34,639 bases of DNA from Planctomycetota bacterium (lineage in GTDB: Bacteria; Planctomycetota; Phycisphaerae; UBA1845; Fen-1342): contig JAHJAR010000208.1 in assembly GCA_018814045.1 (NCBI GenBank), positions 1 to 34,639 of the forward strand, in the 5' to 3' direction. The position numbers and the translations under genes are program-made. Positions 11,350-18,154 of this stretch are shown here, in pieces. The notes beneath the pieces were generated by a model. That model saw nothing but the letters and a program-made list of their open reading frames with translations, did no database searches and was not told where the DNA came from. The stretch's first letter is position 1, and each line of letters starts with the position of its first letter.

Positions 11350-12150
11350 CTATTTCTCGCCCTGGGCGGCTGCGGCGTCTTCCTGGAGCCCGGGACGGTT
11401 CCGCAACCGGTAACTCGCACCGAGCAGGAACGCCAGACCCAGCATGACCGCCGGAATCGCCTTCATGGCGGTTTCCGTGTTCTTTACCATGGGCGTGGTG
11501 GGGACGTCTGTGATATAGCCGACCTTCTCGAAGGGAACGCTCGAGATGTGCAGCAGACACGTTCCACCCGCCTCGTGCAGACCGTATATGTGGTGAACAT
11601 AGAGGCTGGGATTCTGGCTGATGCGGCGTTGCGCCTCGCGGATCAACTCGTCCCGCTCACCAAAGACAATCGCCCCGGTCGGACAGGCCTTGGCACAGGC
11701 GGGAATCTCGCCCGCCTCCTGCCGGTCCGCACAGAACGTGCACTTGGTGATATAGGGATTCCAACTCGAATACTCGAACCGCGGCACCAGGAACGGACAC
11801 GCCAGCATGCAGTACCGGCAGCCGATGCACTTGTTCTTGTGATAGATGACCGGTCCGCTCTCCAGTTTTTCCAGGGCACCGACCGGACAAGCCGAGATGC
11901 AGCCCGGCACTTCGCAGTGCATACACTGCTTCTTGCCGAAGACCCACTCAAACCGGCCGTTCCTCTTCACTTCGTTGTAGGTGACCAAGCACCAGGTGTC
12001 CTTGCTCAGGTCCGCCGGGTTCTGGTACCCCGGCCCGCCGAAGAACTCCGTTTTCTCGGCGGGGCGCTTGTTCCATTGCTTGCAGGCCACCTGACATCCC
12101 CGGCAACCCGTGCAGCGGGGTAGATCGATGAGCATTGCATTCGTCGCCAT
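11350..12150 (-). CDS. fdhB: Formate dehydrogenase iron-sulfur (beta) subunit
   Basis: The 266-residue electron-transfer subunit has four ferredoxin-type cysteine groups: CTGCRGCQVAC (13-23), CMHCEVPGCISACP (76-89), CIGCRYCMLACP (108-119) and CTFC...CAKACP (137-157), enough for four 4Fe-4S clusters. A single hydrophobic helix near the C-terminus (about 228-247, AIPAVMLGLAFLLGA) anchors it, as in FdnH. It has no Tat signal and would be exported with the catalytic subunit. Its ATG shares one base with the fdhA stop (TGATG), with AGGAGG just upstream, which points to translational coupling. Confidence 0.94.
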   Translation of the reverse strand: MATNAMLIDLPRCTGCRGCQVACKQWNKRPAEKTEFFGGPGYQNPADLSKDTWCLVTYNEVKRNGRFEWVFGKKQCMHCEVPGCISACPVGALEKLESGPVIYHKNKCIGCRYCMLACPFLVPRFEYSSWNPYITKCTFCADRQEAGEIPACAKACPTGAIVFGERDELIREAQRRISQNPSLYVHHIYGLHEAGGTCLLHISSVPFEKVGYITDVPTTPMVKNTETAMKAIPAVMLGLAFLLGASYRLRNRPGLQEDAAAAQGEK

Positions 12151-15100
12151 CAGGCCACCTCCTCTGCTTTCTCAACCTGGCACAGGAACGCCTTGTACTC
12201 CGGGATCATCGTGTTGGCGTCGCCGACGTGCGGCGTCAGTTGATTGCCGCTGTCGCCCGTGGCAAGGCCGGCGTAGCCCCAGTGCCAGGGCACACCGATC
12301 TGATCAACCAGTTTGCCGCCCACGAAGAACGGTTCGAACCGCTCCGTCACCAGGGCGCGGGCCCGGAATCCCCCCCGCTTACTGGAGACATGAACCCAGT
12401 CGCCGGTCTTGATGCTCTTGCGCCCGGCCAGACTGGTGGACATCTCCACAAACGGGTCCGGCATCAGTTCCACCAGCCAGGGCGTGTTCCGCGTCATTGC
12501 ACCCGCCTGCCAGTGTTCGCTGACACGATAGGTCGTGCCCACGATCGGGAATTCGCTCGCGTCGCCGATCAACTCCGGCTCCCAGACCTTGATCGCCGGG
12601 TTGTACTGCTGCGCCGAGAACGGGTTCTTGATCGGGCTCTCGAGCGGCTCGTAGTGCTCGGGGAACGGCCCATCCGCCAGGCTGGTCGAGAAGAGGCAGG
12701 CCAGGCCTTCCGGGCGCATAATGAATGGATGGCGGGCCGCCGGCGGCCAACCGCCGTCCGGTACGTCACCTTCCCAGTTGCCAGCACCGTCCTTCAGGGC
12801 CGGGTTCCAGCGGATCACCCAGCGCTTCGGGGCCCATGGCTGACCTTCCAGATCAACCGAGGCGCGGTTGTAGATGATCCGGCGATTGATCGGCCAGCAC
12901 CACGACCAGTCCAGGTTCAGACCAAAGCAGCGCCCCGGTGGCACCTTGGCCGAGTCCTCCTTGAACCGCTTCGCCATGCGGTTGATGGTCTTGTCCGAGC
13001 GCCCGCGGACGGTCGTAACGTGTAGCCCGTCCTGCTCGACTTCGACGCCCGAACCTTCCGCATGCTCAATATAGGAGCCGCAGTACAGCCAGTTGCCCGA
13101 GCAGGTGCTGCCGTCGTCGGCCAGCTTGACGAAATTGAAAACCTGCTTGCCCTGATTGGGCCCGGACATGTAGTAGCCGTTGATTTCCGCGGCAACCGTC
13201 TGGATATCCGGCTCGCCGTGCTCATCGACGCCGTAATTCCAGGTCAGCTCGGTGATCGCCTCGGGCAGGGCGCCGCCCTGCTCGGCGTAGAGGCGTTTGA
13301 GTTCCTGGACGAGCCGCGTGATGATGGCCGCATCGGAAATCGCCGCTCCAGGCGCATTCGCCGCCTTGTAGCGCCATTGGCTCCAGCGTCCACTGTTGAT
13401 GACACTGCCTTCCTTCTCCATCGAGGCCGCCGCCGGGAGCAGGAAGACCTCGGTGTTGATGGAGGCCGGGTCCACACCGGGCCGTTTCCAGAAGACCGAC
13501 GTGTCGGTCTCGAAGATGTCGACCGCGACCAACCAGTCCAGGTTGCCCAGGGCCTTGCGCTCCTTGTACGAGTTCGGACCACCGACCGCGGGGTTCTGCC
13601 CGAAACAGAACAGCCCCTTGATCGCGCCCGCGTGCATGGCCTCGAACAGTGCGATGTGTGTCCGTGGCGGACCGCTGATCTTGCCCAGGAAGCTGTAGCA
13701 GAAGTCGTTTTCCTTGGTCGCGTGATCGCCCCAGAACGCCTTCAGCAGGCTGACCATGTACTTCGGATAGTGCTGCCACCAGTTGGCGCTCTTGGGATCG
13801 TTGCTCTTGGGCGTAGATGCGTCCAGGTGCGCCTGGAGCGTCGCCTGCGGCGCCTGCGGCGTCTTGAGATAACCCGGCAGAATATGGAACAGCAGGGCCA
13901 TATCCGTCGAGCCCTGCACGTTCGACTCGCCGCGCAACGCGTTGATGCCGCCACCCGCCACGCCGACGTTGCCCAGCAGCAACTGCAGAATGACGTACGT
14001 GCGGATATTCTGGGTGCCGTGCGTGTGTTGCGTCGTGCCCATCGCGTACATCCACGTCGCCACTCGGTCCGGAGCCCAGGTTGACGTATAGATGTCGCAG
14101 ACCTTCTTGTATGTATCGATAGGCGAGCCGGTCGTGTTGCAAACCGTTTCCGTATCGTAACGGGCAAAGTGCTTCTTCATGAGCTGGAACACGCAGCGCG
14201 GATGCTCCATCGTCATGTCGCGCTTCGGAAGCCCGTTCTCGTCCAGCTCGTAGGCCCACTTCGACTTGTCGTAGCTGGGCGGGTCGGTGTCCGGGTTGTA
14301 GCCGGCGAACAGGCCCGCGTCGAAGTCGAACTCCTGGTTGATGATGAACGTCGCGTTCGTGTAGTGCCGCACATACTCGCGGTTTACGCGATCATTCTGC
14401 AAGGCGAAGTTGATCATGCCGCCCACGAAGGCGATGTCCGTCCCGGACCGCATCTTGCAGTAATGATCGGAGAAGGCCGTCGTTCGCGTGTAGCGCGGGT
14501 CGCAGGAGAGCACCGTCGCGCCGCGCTCCTTGGCCCGCATGATCCACTTGGCCGCGATCGGGTGATTCTCGACGGCGTTGCTGCCGCAGATCATCACCAC
14601 GTCGGCGTTCGCCAGGTCGATCCAGTGGTTGGTCATCGCCCCCCGACCAAATGATGCCGCCAGACTAGCGACAGTCGAACTGTGTCATATCCGGGCCTGG
14701 TGTTCGATCCAAACCAGCCCCATGGCACGCATCGCCTTGGCCAGGAGGTAGCATTCCTCCGTATCCAGTGACGCGCCGCCCAGACAGGCGACCCCGTCCA
14801 CGCGATTCACAACCTGGCCGCTCGCGTCCGTCCCCACCCAGGTTTCCTCACGCGTCTTCTTGACCCGCTCGGCGATCATCTTGATCGCCTGATCCCAGGA
14901 GAGTTCCTCCCACTCCCGCGCACCGGGCTTGCGATGTCGCACGATTTGGTTGCGCCGCTCGTTGTGGTGCAACTGATACAGCGATGCGCCTTTGCTGCAC
15001 AGGGCCCCTTCGTTGATCGGGTGATCGGGATCACCCTCCATGTTAACGATGGTGCCGTCCCGGACCTCCACTATCCCCCCGCAGCCTACGCCGCAGTAGG

Positions 15101-15251
15101 GACATATCGTTGTGCTGATCGTGCCACGCTGTGGCTTCGCCTGCGCCGCAAAAGCCTCACTGGGACGGAGGTTCAATCCCAGGAAACCGAGCAGCGCACC
15201 GGTACCTGTGGCACCGGTGGCTCCAAGAAAGGTGCGTCGAGTTAGCTCCAT
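12150..15251 (-). CDS. fdnG: Formate dehydrogenase catalytic (alpha) subunit, selenocysteine-containing, Tat-exported
   Basis: This is one gene read through a TGA at 14685-14687; ordinary ORF calling splits it at that codon. The 1033-residue product oxidises formate at a Mo/W bis-MGD centre. It starts at ATG 15251, with GGAGG seven bases upstream, and a twin-arginine signal (TRRTFLGA, then a hydrophobic stretch and EAFA). A 4Fe-4S motif follows: C50, C53, C57 and C85. The UGA codon is residue 189 in WIEHQARI-U-HSSTVASLAASFGRG, exactly where FdnG-type enzymes have selenocysteine followed by the catalytic histidine, and TNHWIDLANADVVMICGSNAVENHP continues in frame. Length matches FdnG. The region after the UGA forms a SECIS hairpin. 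First gene of the fdh cluster. Confidence 0.95.
14656..14687 (-). promoter_or_regulatory. SECIS element with in-frame UGA (selenocysteine insertion)
   Basis: Counting the UGA as bases 1-3, bases 16-20 (GUCGC) pair with 28-32 (GCGGC), and U21-G27 closes an AGUCU loop at 22-26. The loop occupies the same distance from the UGA as GGUCU in E. coli fdhF, and keeps the GU required by SelB. The pairing is seen in the sequence; recognition by SelB is inferred from the family. Confidence 0.85.
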
Positions 15252-15453
15252 TGCGGTTCCTCCACGGACTTGGCGAACCTCCATCCAGGCACGCCGGAGA
15301 AGACCTACATCCGCATACAAACAGGCCCACGCCACGCTGGCAAAGGGCCCACGCTCTCCCAACCGAGTACGGCTTGCGCCGCCTCCCGGTGGCTGACTGC
15401 AACTCATTGCCGCGCCGCCAATGCGGTGCATTGTCACAGCCACCAGTCCGAGC

Positions 15454-15459
15454 ATCATA
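15454..15459 (-). promoter_or_regulatory. Candidate -10 element upstream of the formate dehydrogenase operon
   Basis: TATGAT on the minus strand lies about 200 bases before the fdhA start. No convincing -35 hexamer is found at the right distance, so this is only a candidate. The rest of 15252-15517 shows no gene. Confidence 0.2.
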
Positions 15460-15517
15460 GCGAAGTTCGACGCGAGCGAAAACGCCGCGCAAAAAAAACC
15501 GTTCAACTCATCGCCGG

Positions 15518-16549
15518 TTGCACGCAATATTTGCTCGCTTGCTAACGCGTACCGTGCGCTTTGCGCGTCAACCCGCAGCCGCACCGCGCGCGACGCAGCA
15601 ACAGACCGTATGGCATAACCGTGCCATTCGGTTGCTGCGGAAAGCTGGACTTATCACCAAACACGCCGACCCCACGAGCCTCGCCTTCGGGCACAGGAGA
15701 ATCGGCTTCACAACTAGTGGCGAAGCTGTGGCATTGGCTATCAGCCAGCGAAAAACGGGCCGCTCGCCCGCGACCCGAAGTGAAACGGGTTCTACGCACC
15801 TGACAGGATCAAGCCTGCGCAGCGCTGGCGGCGCCATCTACTGCGACGGGAGCAGCCCCACCATCGCCAACTGCGTCATCACCGGCAACGCGGCCGACCT
15901 CGGCGGCGGCATCTGCTGCGACTACTTCAGCAACCCCGCGATCATCAATTGCACACTCACCGACAACACTGCCGGTTGCTTTGGTGGCGGCATCTACTGC
16001 TGGTTCAGCAGCCCCACCGTTACCGATTGCACGATCAGCCGGAACGAAGCCGTCGAATGCTGCGGCGACAGCGTTGTTGCCAGCTATAGCTGCATCGAAG
16101 GTGGCTGGTCCGGGACCGCCAACATCGCTGACGATCCGCTGCTGACCGATCCGGACGGCGCCGATGACACACCCGGTACGACCGACGATGACATCCACCT
16201 GCTCCCCGGATCGCCGTGTGCTGGTGGTGGCTTCACACAGACCTGTCAACCGGGCGATCTGGATTACGACGGCGAGCCGCGCGTCATGGACGGTCGCATC
16301 GAGATGGGCGCCGACGAAATCAGCGGCACCGCCGGCTTCCTCTACGGCGACCTGAACTGCGACTGCATTGCCAACGGCTTCGACATCGACCACTTCATCC
16401 AGGCCCTCGACGACTGGGCCGGATACCTGGCGGACCACGACGGCGATCCCTATTCCCCCTGCGATCTCTGGTACGCCGACGTCAACGCCGACGGCGCCGT
16501 CAACGGTTTTGACATTGACGCGTTCGTGCTGCTGCTGGGCGGCGGCTAG
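15518..16549 (+). CDS. C-terminal remnant of a right-handed beta-helix protein with dockerin-like tail
   Basis: The frame is open for 343 codons, but only the part from about 15815 looks like real protein. There, three beta-helix repeats occur (GGAIYCDGSSPTIANCVITGN, then GGGICCDYFSNPAIINCTLTDN and GGGIYCWFSSPTVTDCTISRN), followed by a spacer rich in Asp/Thr and a duplicated dockerin-like module (GDLNCDCIANGFDID and ADVNADGAVNGFDID). The first 100 or so residues are Arg-rich, non-repetitive and lack a signal peptide, so the true N-terminus appears to be missing. Such cell-surface or secreted proteins normally have many more repeats. The TAG stop is also the first bases of the palindromic element. 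I read it as a 5'-truncated gene, probably not functional. Confidence 0.6.
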   Translation: MHAIFARLLTRTVRFARQPAAAPRATQQQTVWHNRAIRLLRKAGLITKHADPTSLAFGHRRIGFTTSGEAVALAISQRKTGRSPATRSETGSTHLTGSSLRSAGGAIYCDGSSPTIANCVITGNAADLGGGICCDYFSNPAIINCTLTDNTAGCFGGGIYCWFSSPTVTDCTISRNEAVECCGDSVVASYSCIEGGWSGTANIADDPLLTDPDGADDTPGTTDDDIHLLPGSPCAGGGFTQTCQPGDLDYDGEPRVMDGRIEMGADEISGTAGFLYGDLNCDCIANGFDIDHFIQALDDWAGYLADHDGDPYSPCDLWYADVNADGAVNGFDIDAFVLLLGGG

Positions 16550-16686
16550 TGTCCTGAGTCCGAATCTCGGTACAAGAGTCTCGTTCGCTGGATGAGCCGC
16601 AGGCTTCAGCCTGCGCGGGGCCGCGCGGGCTGAAGCCCGCGGCTCTTCGATCCAGGTTGCTACACGAAACTCGGACTCAGGACACT
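16548..16686. mobile_element. MITE-like palindromic element, 139 bp
   Basis: Perfect 16-bp terminal inverted repeats (AGTGTCCTGAGTCCGA at 16548-16563 and its complement at 16671-16686) enclose a second long palindrome at 16594-16645. That inner palindrome has arms of 25 bases beginning GAGCCGC and containing GGCTTCAGCC, with two mismatches and a 2-base centre. No ORF is inside. It begins within the stop codon of the upstream gene and lies between convergent genes, so it could also serve as a bidirectional terminator. No obvious target-site duplication is visible. Confidence 0.7.
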
Positions 16687-16841
16687 GGAGCGTTTTCACT
16701 TCTGATGTAGCGTCCGGGCCCTGCACCGGACGTTGATATCCACGGCCGATGCAGGGCTCGGCCGCTGCAGACTTGTGGAACTCGCCCTGATCGAGTGCCA
16801 ACCCCTGGGTGAATGAGCGCGTCGGCCGCTTGCGGACAACA

Positions 16842-17930: not shown

Positions 17931-17980
17931 GCGCGTGGCCTCGTAGTGTTGGAGATCCCGACCGGTCGGCGACGTGGCAT

Positions 17981-18010
17981 AAAAAGCGACGCCGGCCGAA
18001 GCCGGCGTCG
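17981..18010 (-). terminator. Intrinsic terminator of the DAHP synthase attenuator
   Basis: On the minus strand a perfect 10-bp stem CGACGCCGGC / GCCGGCGTCG with a UUCG tetraloop is followed by C and five U. It lies between the leader peptide and the DAHP synthase start, so it would stop transcription before the gene. Its 5' arm can instead pair with 18045-18050. Confidence 0.85.
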
Positions 18011-18040
18011 ATGGTCTCGCGATTCCTTACGGCCGCACCA

Positions 18041-18115
18041 TCACCCGGCTACGCTCCACGCGTAGTACCAGGAATAAAAGCGATAGTGCCTTGTGTACGT
18101 GCTCACGTTTCTCAT
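18041..18115 (-). CDS. Aromatic leader peptide of DAHP synthase attenuator
   Basis: A 24-codon ORF starts at ATG 18115 and ends at TGA 18041. Eight of its residues are aromatic: Tyr 7, 11, 14, 17 and 18, Phe 13, and Trp 16 and 20, concentrated in RFYSWYYAW. An in-frame TAA lies five codons upstream, so the ATG (or GTG 18106) is the start. There is no Shine-Dalgarno; a candidate promoter places the transcript start only a few bases before the ATG, so translation may be leaderless. It overlaps RNA segment 2 at its last codons. The density of Tyr/Trp/Phe codons directly before a terminator and an aromatic pathway gene makes a regulatory peptide the clear reading. Confidence 0.82.
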   Translation of the reverse strand: MRNVSTYTRHYRFYSWYYAWSVAG

Positions 18116-18124
18116 GGCTGTTAC

Positions 18125-18154
18125 ATCTTAGTGCTTACGCACTCACAGAATCAA
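18125..18154 (-). promoter_or_regulatory. Candidate sigma70-type promoter for leader peptide and DAHP synthase
   Basis: TTGATT (18149-18154) and TAAGAT (18125-18130) are separated by 18 bases; each hexamer matches the consensus at four of six positions. Transcription would begin around 18117-18119, almost at the leader ATG. The rest of the gap to the kinase stop at 18279 holds nothing else I can identify. Confidence 0.5.

Follow-up and report, generated by a model that had tools for sequence, protein, structure and literature searches.

The window analysed here, the whole 34,639-nucleotide stretch of DNA from a Planctomycetota bacterium, includes a gene for DAHP synthase, the first enzyme of the aromatic pathway, which is preceded by a short ORF rich in aromatic codons and by a terminator-like hairpin. 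The question raised by this locus is whether these elements form a transcription attenuator in which translation of the short ORF controls the expression of the DAHP synthase gene, as proposed in a first-pass annotation. Our analysis indicates that the element is very probably a ribosome-mediated transcription attenuator of the DAHP synthase gene.

The DAHP synthase gene and its genome

The features of the locus are listed in Table 1. The same genome bin also includes two type I-beta DAHP synthases and KdsA, and no aromatic leader was found before any of these three genes. The attenuated gene in the window looks like a regulated extra isozyme, and one of the type I-beta DAHP synthases or KdsA may be foreign, given the 7.35% contamination of the bin. 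Contamination as the source of the window locus itself was rejected because its DAHP synthase falls within the clade of its order (support 99) and a repeat located at 16552-16694 is found on other contigs of the bin. This repeat, just downstream of the DAHP synthase gene, is a MITE-like element with long imperfect inverted repeats; it has 50 matches in its own genome, a number of which are one copy matched again on the opposite strand, and seven other copies of 97-140 bp and 83-92% identity lie on other contigs. Elsewhere in the window, the gene for the alpha subunit of formate dehydrogenase-N (12150-15584, minus strand) is split into two ORFs by an in-frame TGA at 14687-14685. The product looks like a selenocysteine enzyme since the profile spans both ORFs and the frame is open past the TGA.

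Table 1. Features of the DAHP synthase locus, in window coordinates.
Feature	Coordinates	Strand	Remarks
Candidate -35 box TTGATT	18149-18154	minus	strongest sigma-70-like candidate ahead of the leader; 8/12 matched, 18-nt spacer; weak by itself, shuffle p=0.13
Candidate -10 box TAAGAT	18125-18130	minus	ends 9 nt ahead of the leader ATG
Leader peptide ORF, MRNVSTYTRHYRFYSWYYAWSVAG	18115-18041	minus	24 aa; stop TGA 18043-18041
Segment 1	18082-18089	minus	pairs with 18035-18042 in the minimum-energy fold, aided by 18068-18072 with 18044-18048
Segment 2	18037-18050	minus	overlaps the last leader codons and the stop
Segment 3, antiterminator partner	18000-18015	minus	contains the terminator 5' arm
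Intrinsic terminator hairpin, segments 3:4	17987-18010	minus	10 bp, cUUCGg loop, -22 kcal/mol
Terminator U-tract	17981-17985	minus	read from the sequence
Possible Shine-Dalgarno GAGG	17939-17942	minus	8 nt ahead of the DAHP synthase start, read from the sequence
Type I-alpha (AroF/G/H) DAHP synthase, 362 aa	16842-17930	minus	NF009395 E=4.6e-153, TIGR00034 E=5.7e-142, both above cut-offs

Leader peptide and competing RNA structures

The annotated 24-codon leader with eight aromatic residues is present on the minus strand. As expected of an attenuator, the short ORF is rich in codons for products of the pathway: 8 of its 24 residues are aromatic (one Phe, five Tyr and two Trp). Its core, YRFYSWYYAW, is the sole stretch with seven aromatics among the 57,825 stop-free 10-residue stretches in the six frames of the window. 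When the upstream 348 nt were subjected to dinucleotide shuffling, an ORF with at least six aromatics in 10 residues was generated in none of 20,000 shuffles and one with five in 54; the aromatic run exceeds chance.

An intrinsic terminator lies between the leader and the structural gene (18010-17981), with the UUCG cap, 10-bp stem and U-tract that had been annotated. The stem is formed by 18010-18001 paired with 17996-17987 around a loop at 18000-17997, and hairpins of this type at -15 kcal/mol or lower appeared in 8 of 2,000 shuffles of the upstream 348 nt. The three alternative pairings can form as proposed. The 1:2 helix (18089-18082 with 18042-18035) has 8 bp including one G-U, and the 2:3 helices (18050-18045 with 18005-18000 and 18042-18037 with 18015-18010) consist of standard pairs throughout. 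Their description as partly exclusive is correct because only the lower 2:3 helix rules out the terminator. The minimum-energy fold of the leader RNA combines the 1:2 helix with the terminator (z=-2.74, 1 of 200 shuffles equally good), and its 1:2 hairpin also takes in 18072-18068 with 18048-18044, beyond the pairings of the first-pass annotation. Without the terminator 3' arm, the antiterminator folds at approximately -25 kcal/mol. The window showed no match at gathering score to Rfam families, including T-box and amino-acid leaders; a search at relaxed thresholds rendered five sub-threshold matches, to four sRNA families and one snoRNA.

Predicted effect of ribosome stalling

If the transcription start lies only a few bases from the leader ATG, the first ribosome would load on a leaderless or nearly leaderless RNA. 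With charged tRNA-Phe, tRNA-Tyr and tRNA-Trp plentiful, it would reach the stop codon and cover segment 2, and the terminator would form; with no translation, the 1:2 hairpin would form and the terminator would likewise be free. When an aromatic tRNA is short, the ribosome would stall somewhere from Tyr7 to Tyr18, breaking the 1:2 hairpin and freeing segment 2 to pair with segment 3 while the terminator 3' arm is still to be transcribed, and RNA polymerase would continue into the DAHP synthase gene.

These steps were modelled assuming that the ribosome covers 12 nt past the A-site codon. Stalls at Tyr7, Tyr11, Phe13, Tyr14, Trp16, Tyr17 and Tyr18 free segment 2 in the model and place 10 of the 12 terminator-arm bases in an antiterminator of -25 to -32 kcal/mol, while a stall at Trp20 covers segment 2 and leaves 4 of the 12 arm bases paired. 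An antiterminator that is freed by a stall at control codons and excludes the terminator, by its lower helix only, is therefore predicted for the window. The leaders of three enterobacterial loci (L060, L075 and L089), which we take to be pheL from their peptides, follow the same pattern, last Phe included. Even with a stalled ribosome the terminator is the favoured structure at equilibrium, by 5.0 kcal/mol at Trp16 and at least 7.1 kcal/mol at the other codons of the window leader, and likewise in pheL, by 1.9-4.7 kcal/mol at the two best codons. Antitermination must therefore be kinetic, by trapping of the RNA.

The annotation also held that a shortage of any aromatic amino acid would be sensed. 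Codons for all three are indeed present in the window leader, and Phe, Tyr and Trp are found together in 19 of 22 leaders. The response would depend for Trp on Trp16, which is well placed, as Trp20 comes too late to work in the model. In the leaders of family f74, described below, a ribosome stalled at Trp covers segment 2 in the model, so these leaders may sense Phe and Tyr.

Initiation of transcription and translation

No Shine-Dalgarno core was seen before the window leader ATG, and a stricter promoter scan upstream of this leader found none. Judging from the position of the candidate -10 box, the leader transcript is probably leaderless or nearly so. A gap of 3-9 nt between the -10 box and the start was also found at L012, L017, L059 and L219 (promoter p 0.002-0.018) and at L216, L221, L222, L227 and L228, where the promoter matches were not significant (p 0.07-0.46). 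TTGACA-type promoter matches precede five f74 leaders and three from Chloroflexota (p 0.002-0.024), and four f74 leaders show GAGG ahead of the start, with longer gaps. A 14-bp inverted repeat, AGTGC-GTAA-GCACT, possibly an operator, is located between the candidate -35 and -10 boxes of the window (18130-18143).

Absence of the leader from close relatives

Conservation of the leader in close relatives was sought across 61, 397 and 114 genomes and was not seen; these searches yielded no further genome from the genus of the window. This DAHP synthase is found in 14 of the 114 genomes of the order, including the one analysed here. Among the 13 other loci L284 was left out, having no upstream DNA, and an aromatic leader was found at none of the 12 testable ones (L002-L009, L121, L122, L282 and L283). 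Weak terminator-like hairpins, again with no leader, occur at three of these loci (L005, -8.9; L006, -8.4; L283, -11.6). The search of the class gave a match in 71 of 397 genomes, and 69 of the 73 matched places were examined, the remainder being fragments or weak matches; the window was the only one of the 69 with at least five aromatics in 10 residues plus a terminator. By reading, the DAHP synthases of the same order at L003, L004, L005, L007, L008 and L009 appear to be extended at the N-terminus, with Gly-Gly-Trp or Gly-Trp motifs in the added part, and the window enzyme is without this extension.

These results count against a long-conserved element in the lineage of the window and, since the leader is missing from the testable relatives in the order, give no covariation support to the window copy. 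The first-pass annotation had expected that alignment of upstream regions of relatives would show a conserved leader frame and covarying helices, and had named the loss of both as evidence against it. This condition applies by half: the frame is absent from the testable relatives within the order (0/12), and conservation with compensatory changes in close relatives, which would support an attenuator without defining one, is not seen there. Recurrence of the arrangement and covariation were found elsewhere in the phylum, with compensatory changes in the helices of family f37 only.

Recurrence in the phylum and beyond

A search of the phylum gave a DAHP synthase match in 82 of 392 genomes. In family f74 the arrangement precedes the DAHP synthase gene at all five complete loci (L215, L217, L219, L226 and L230), the sixth match being a fragment, and in family f37 it does so at 9 of 30 loci (L209, L214, L216, L221, L222, L227, L228, L232 and L339). 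Named Planctomycetota sequences sit among these "same phylum" genomes in the tree described below, in agreement with the annotation of the genome as planctomycete-like. Outside the phylum, the arrangement was found at L012, L017 and L059 (contigs titled Dehalococcoidia or Chloroflexi), L029 and L045 (Deltaproteobacteria), L078 (Pseudomonadota) and L037 (Desulfobacteraceae); these matches were drawn from the best 80 of 591 stretches and no frequency is claimed for them. The terminators at L037, L228 and L339 were called by eye, having been missed by the scan rule.

This rule, at least six aromatics in 10 residues and a terminator of -12 kcal/mol or lower near the stop, was applied to the 243 upstream stretches, 25 of them from viral contigs, that had 330 nt of upstream DNA among 252 tabulated loci. 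It selected 12 of the 243 and none of the 243 reverse complements. Relaxing it to at least five aromatics gave 14 and 1, respectively, and to at least four, 20 and 2; at this last setting 1 of 243 stretches inside the gene was selected in the sense orientation and none in the antisense. One of the 20, L174, is an evident false positive and seems to be the tail of a dockerin-like gene lying upstream. Two further loci, L162 and L153, were also rejected as attenuators, their frames being rich in aromatics but lacking a terminator. L229 and L273, in or near the attenuated f37 group, were without a leader, and L284 and L251 were left out of the counts because of too little upstream DNA. At three loci titled Dehalococcoidia or Chloroflexota (L019, L028 and L049), aromatic-rich ORFs ending in Tyr-Arg-Ser-stop finish 143-159 nt before the DAHP synthase match; no terminator was found there, and these ORFs are possibly a different kind of leader.

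Other aromatic genes were scanned in eight genomes, and no convincing leader was found at 15 chorismate-binding (TrpE-like) loci with a rule, at least four aromatics in 10 residues with a nearby terminator or at least six, that might overlook leaders containing two or three Trp codons. L286 was too near a contig end, and the long TTG-started frames at L287 and L293, two weak hits of this rule, were judged to be coding by position only.

Pairing statistics and compensatory changes

Across 19 leader loci, pairing between the spacer and the 5' arm of the terminator exceeds that obtained with shuffled spacers (Fisher p=2e-9, rows of the same family not being independent); taken singly, neither the window (p=0.57) nor L017 (p=0.58) exceeds its shuffles. 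The whole-antiterminator fold compared with shuffles gave a Fisher p=6e-9 over the loci and p=0.10 for the window alone.

A few compensatory changes are present in the alignment of seven f37 leader sequences. At the 2:3 pair 50:100, two rows carry GC in place of AU, with both partners altered, and one row has lost the pairing; as the GC rows, L227 and L228, share a genus, one event may account for both. The 2:3 covariation score was reached by 22 of 500 shuffles, with 8 of 63 cells unpaired, and is thin. In the terminator (3:4), both partners are altered in pairs 98:112 and 100:110, with a score reached by 1 of 500 shuffles. Column 100 tends to covary with its partners in both segment 2 and segment 4, as predicted for a shared segment 3, with exceptions in L209, which breaks the first pair, and L221, which has a G-U in the second.

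Gains and losses of the leader

A quick tree was built from 104 DAHP synthases, without L273 (no leader) and L339 (leader); in it the window falls within an 11-row clade of rows from its order (99). All five f74 rows group together (100), each with the leader. Family f37 is divided into an 8-row group (98) with the leader in seven and a 17-row group (100) with the leader in none, and L214, which has the leader, branches outside both. The deltaproteobacterial-type and Chloroflexota leaders are found in further clades. The distribution of the leader on the tree requires at least seven changes, the number of origins being approximate because 36 of 101 inner branches are open; the leader has been repeatedly gained or lost. 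Six f37 genomes (G654, G661, G619, G566, G599 and G646) carry two type I-alpha copies each, one attenuated and the other not, a natural experiment on the specialisation of isozymes.

The leader peptides of the window and f74 are 35-42% identical. Since the terminators differ and the genes lie apart in the tree, convergence is preferred to homology between them, although not proven. On balance we lean towards the view that in Planctomycetota, Chloroflexota and deltaproteobacterial lineages mixed Phe/Tyr/Trp leaders have appeared or disappeared on many occasions upstream of one DAHP synthase isozyme, as convergent three-way sensors of aromatic amino acids. If so, one enzyme at the entrance of the pathway would respond to shortage of any of three end products.

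Alternative explanations

The leader could act through its peptide rather than its codons. The TnaC peptide arrests within the ribosome when tryptophan is sensed, and an aromatic-rich peptide could contact the exit tunnel; a leader that stalls the ribosome on a free metabolite instead of uncharged tRNA, with the same terminator downstream, would be compatible with the anatomy. However, the f37 leaders share the aromatic run and no other common sequence. L217 and L226 keep 7 of 8 aromatic positions across six synonymous and seven non-synonymous codon changes, and L227 and L228 keep only 4 of 7, with one synonymous and eight non-synonymous changes. Because relatives share aromatic content and not the peptide, a reading of codons fits better than a fixed arrest peptide, and we regard a nascent-peptide sensor as very improbable.

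It could also be argued that an ordinary small ORF with a coincidental aromatic run lies next to an unrelated terminator of a short RNA or of an upstream transcript, since terminators are common at the ends of upstream genes and all 12 testable relatives in the order lack the leader. Such a coincidence is very improbable given that no shuffle matched the aromatic run, that the arrangement recurs before the same gene in separate clades with no counterpart in the reverse-complement control (0/243), and that folding in the stalled state resembles that of pheL. Control of the terminator by a protein or another RNA, for instance by a promoter repressor or Rho, with the leader ORF serving only to couple translation, would give a role to the 14-bp inverted repeat between the candidate promoter boxes (18143-18130), which could be an operator; it would leave the aromatic codons unexplained, no T-box or other Rfam family reached threshold in the window, and we consider it extremely improbable. 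Attenuation by a translating ribosome, as first annotated, remains the best-supported reading because separate cases precede the same gene in the same phylum and the competing helices of one family show compensatory changes, the window copy itself being without covariation among its 12 order relatives.

Comparison with known systems

The mechanism is already known, including for aroF of Corynebacterium glutamicum, whose aroR-aroF attenuator was reportedly described by Neshat et al. in 2014. The phyla, the leaders with three amino acids and the repeated gain or loss appear to be new. E. coli has three feedback-controlled DAHP synthase isozymes; mixed Phe/Tyr/Trp leaders point to a simple means by which a single shikimate-entry enzyme could track three end products. 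The enterobacterial pheL-pheA and trpL-trpEDCBA systems have the four-segment logic in common with the window and differ from it in that one amino acid is sensed and another gene is controlled.

According to a 2010 survey (PMC2965389), demonstrated leader-peptide systems were until then confined to Proteobacteria and Actinobacteria, and the survey itself added Firmicutes hisS; the several separate planctomycete and Chloroflexota cases would widen this range. Predicted leader genes have been counted in Planctomycetes in another study (PMC4833913). A literature search found no report of leader-peptide attenuation in Planctomycetota; it left subscription journals mostly uncovered and so does not establish absence from print. 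The annotation's statement that no planctomycete case is described for DAHP synthase agrees with this search, with the qualification that an attenuator precedes this gene in C. glutamicum and, as a prediction, in Shewanella. The Shewanella aroF attenuator appears as a table entry, "Attenuator sensing tyr-tRNA" (PMC2659441); like that of the window it precedes a DAHP synthase gene, and unlike it, it is a gammaproteobacterial prediction for Tyr only. A survey of Actinobacteria detected no conserved RNA structures ahead of operons for Phe or Tyr (PMC1262725). Leader peptide ORFs are described as transcribed leaderless in Streptomyces lividans (PMC8079986), resembling the window, where the start is suggested by the candidate -10 box 9 nt before the ATG; the S. 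lividans leaders described there sense Trp, Leu and others, unlike that of the window. The nearest known case is C. glutamicum aroR-aroF, described as an aromatic-codon leader before a DAHP synthase gene in which ribosome stalling raises transcription (PMC11802643, PMC4046766). By these descriptions it resembles the window in having an aromatic leader ahead of the same kind of gene, and differs in phylum and in codons, AroR having Phe-Tyr-Phe and reportedly responding to Phe limitation, not to Tyr availability (PMC11802643), whereas the window leader includes Phe, Tyr and Trp codons.
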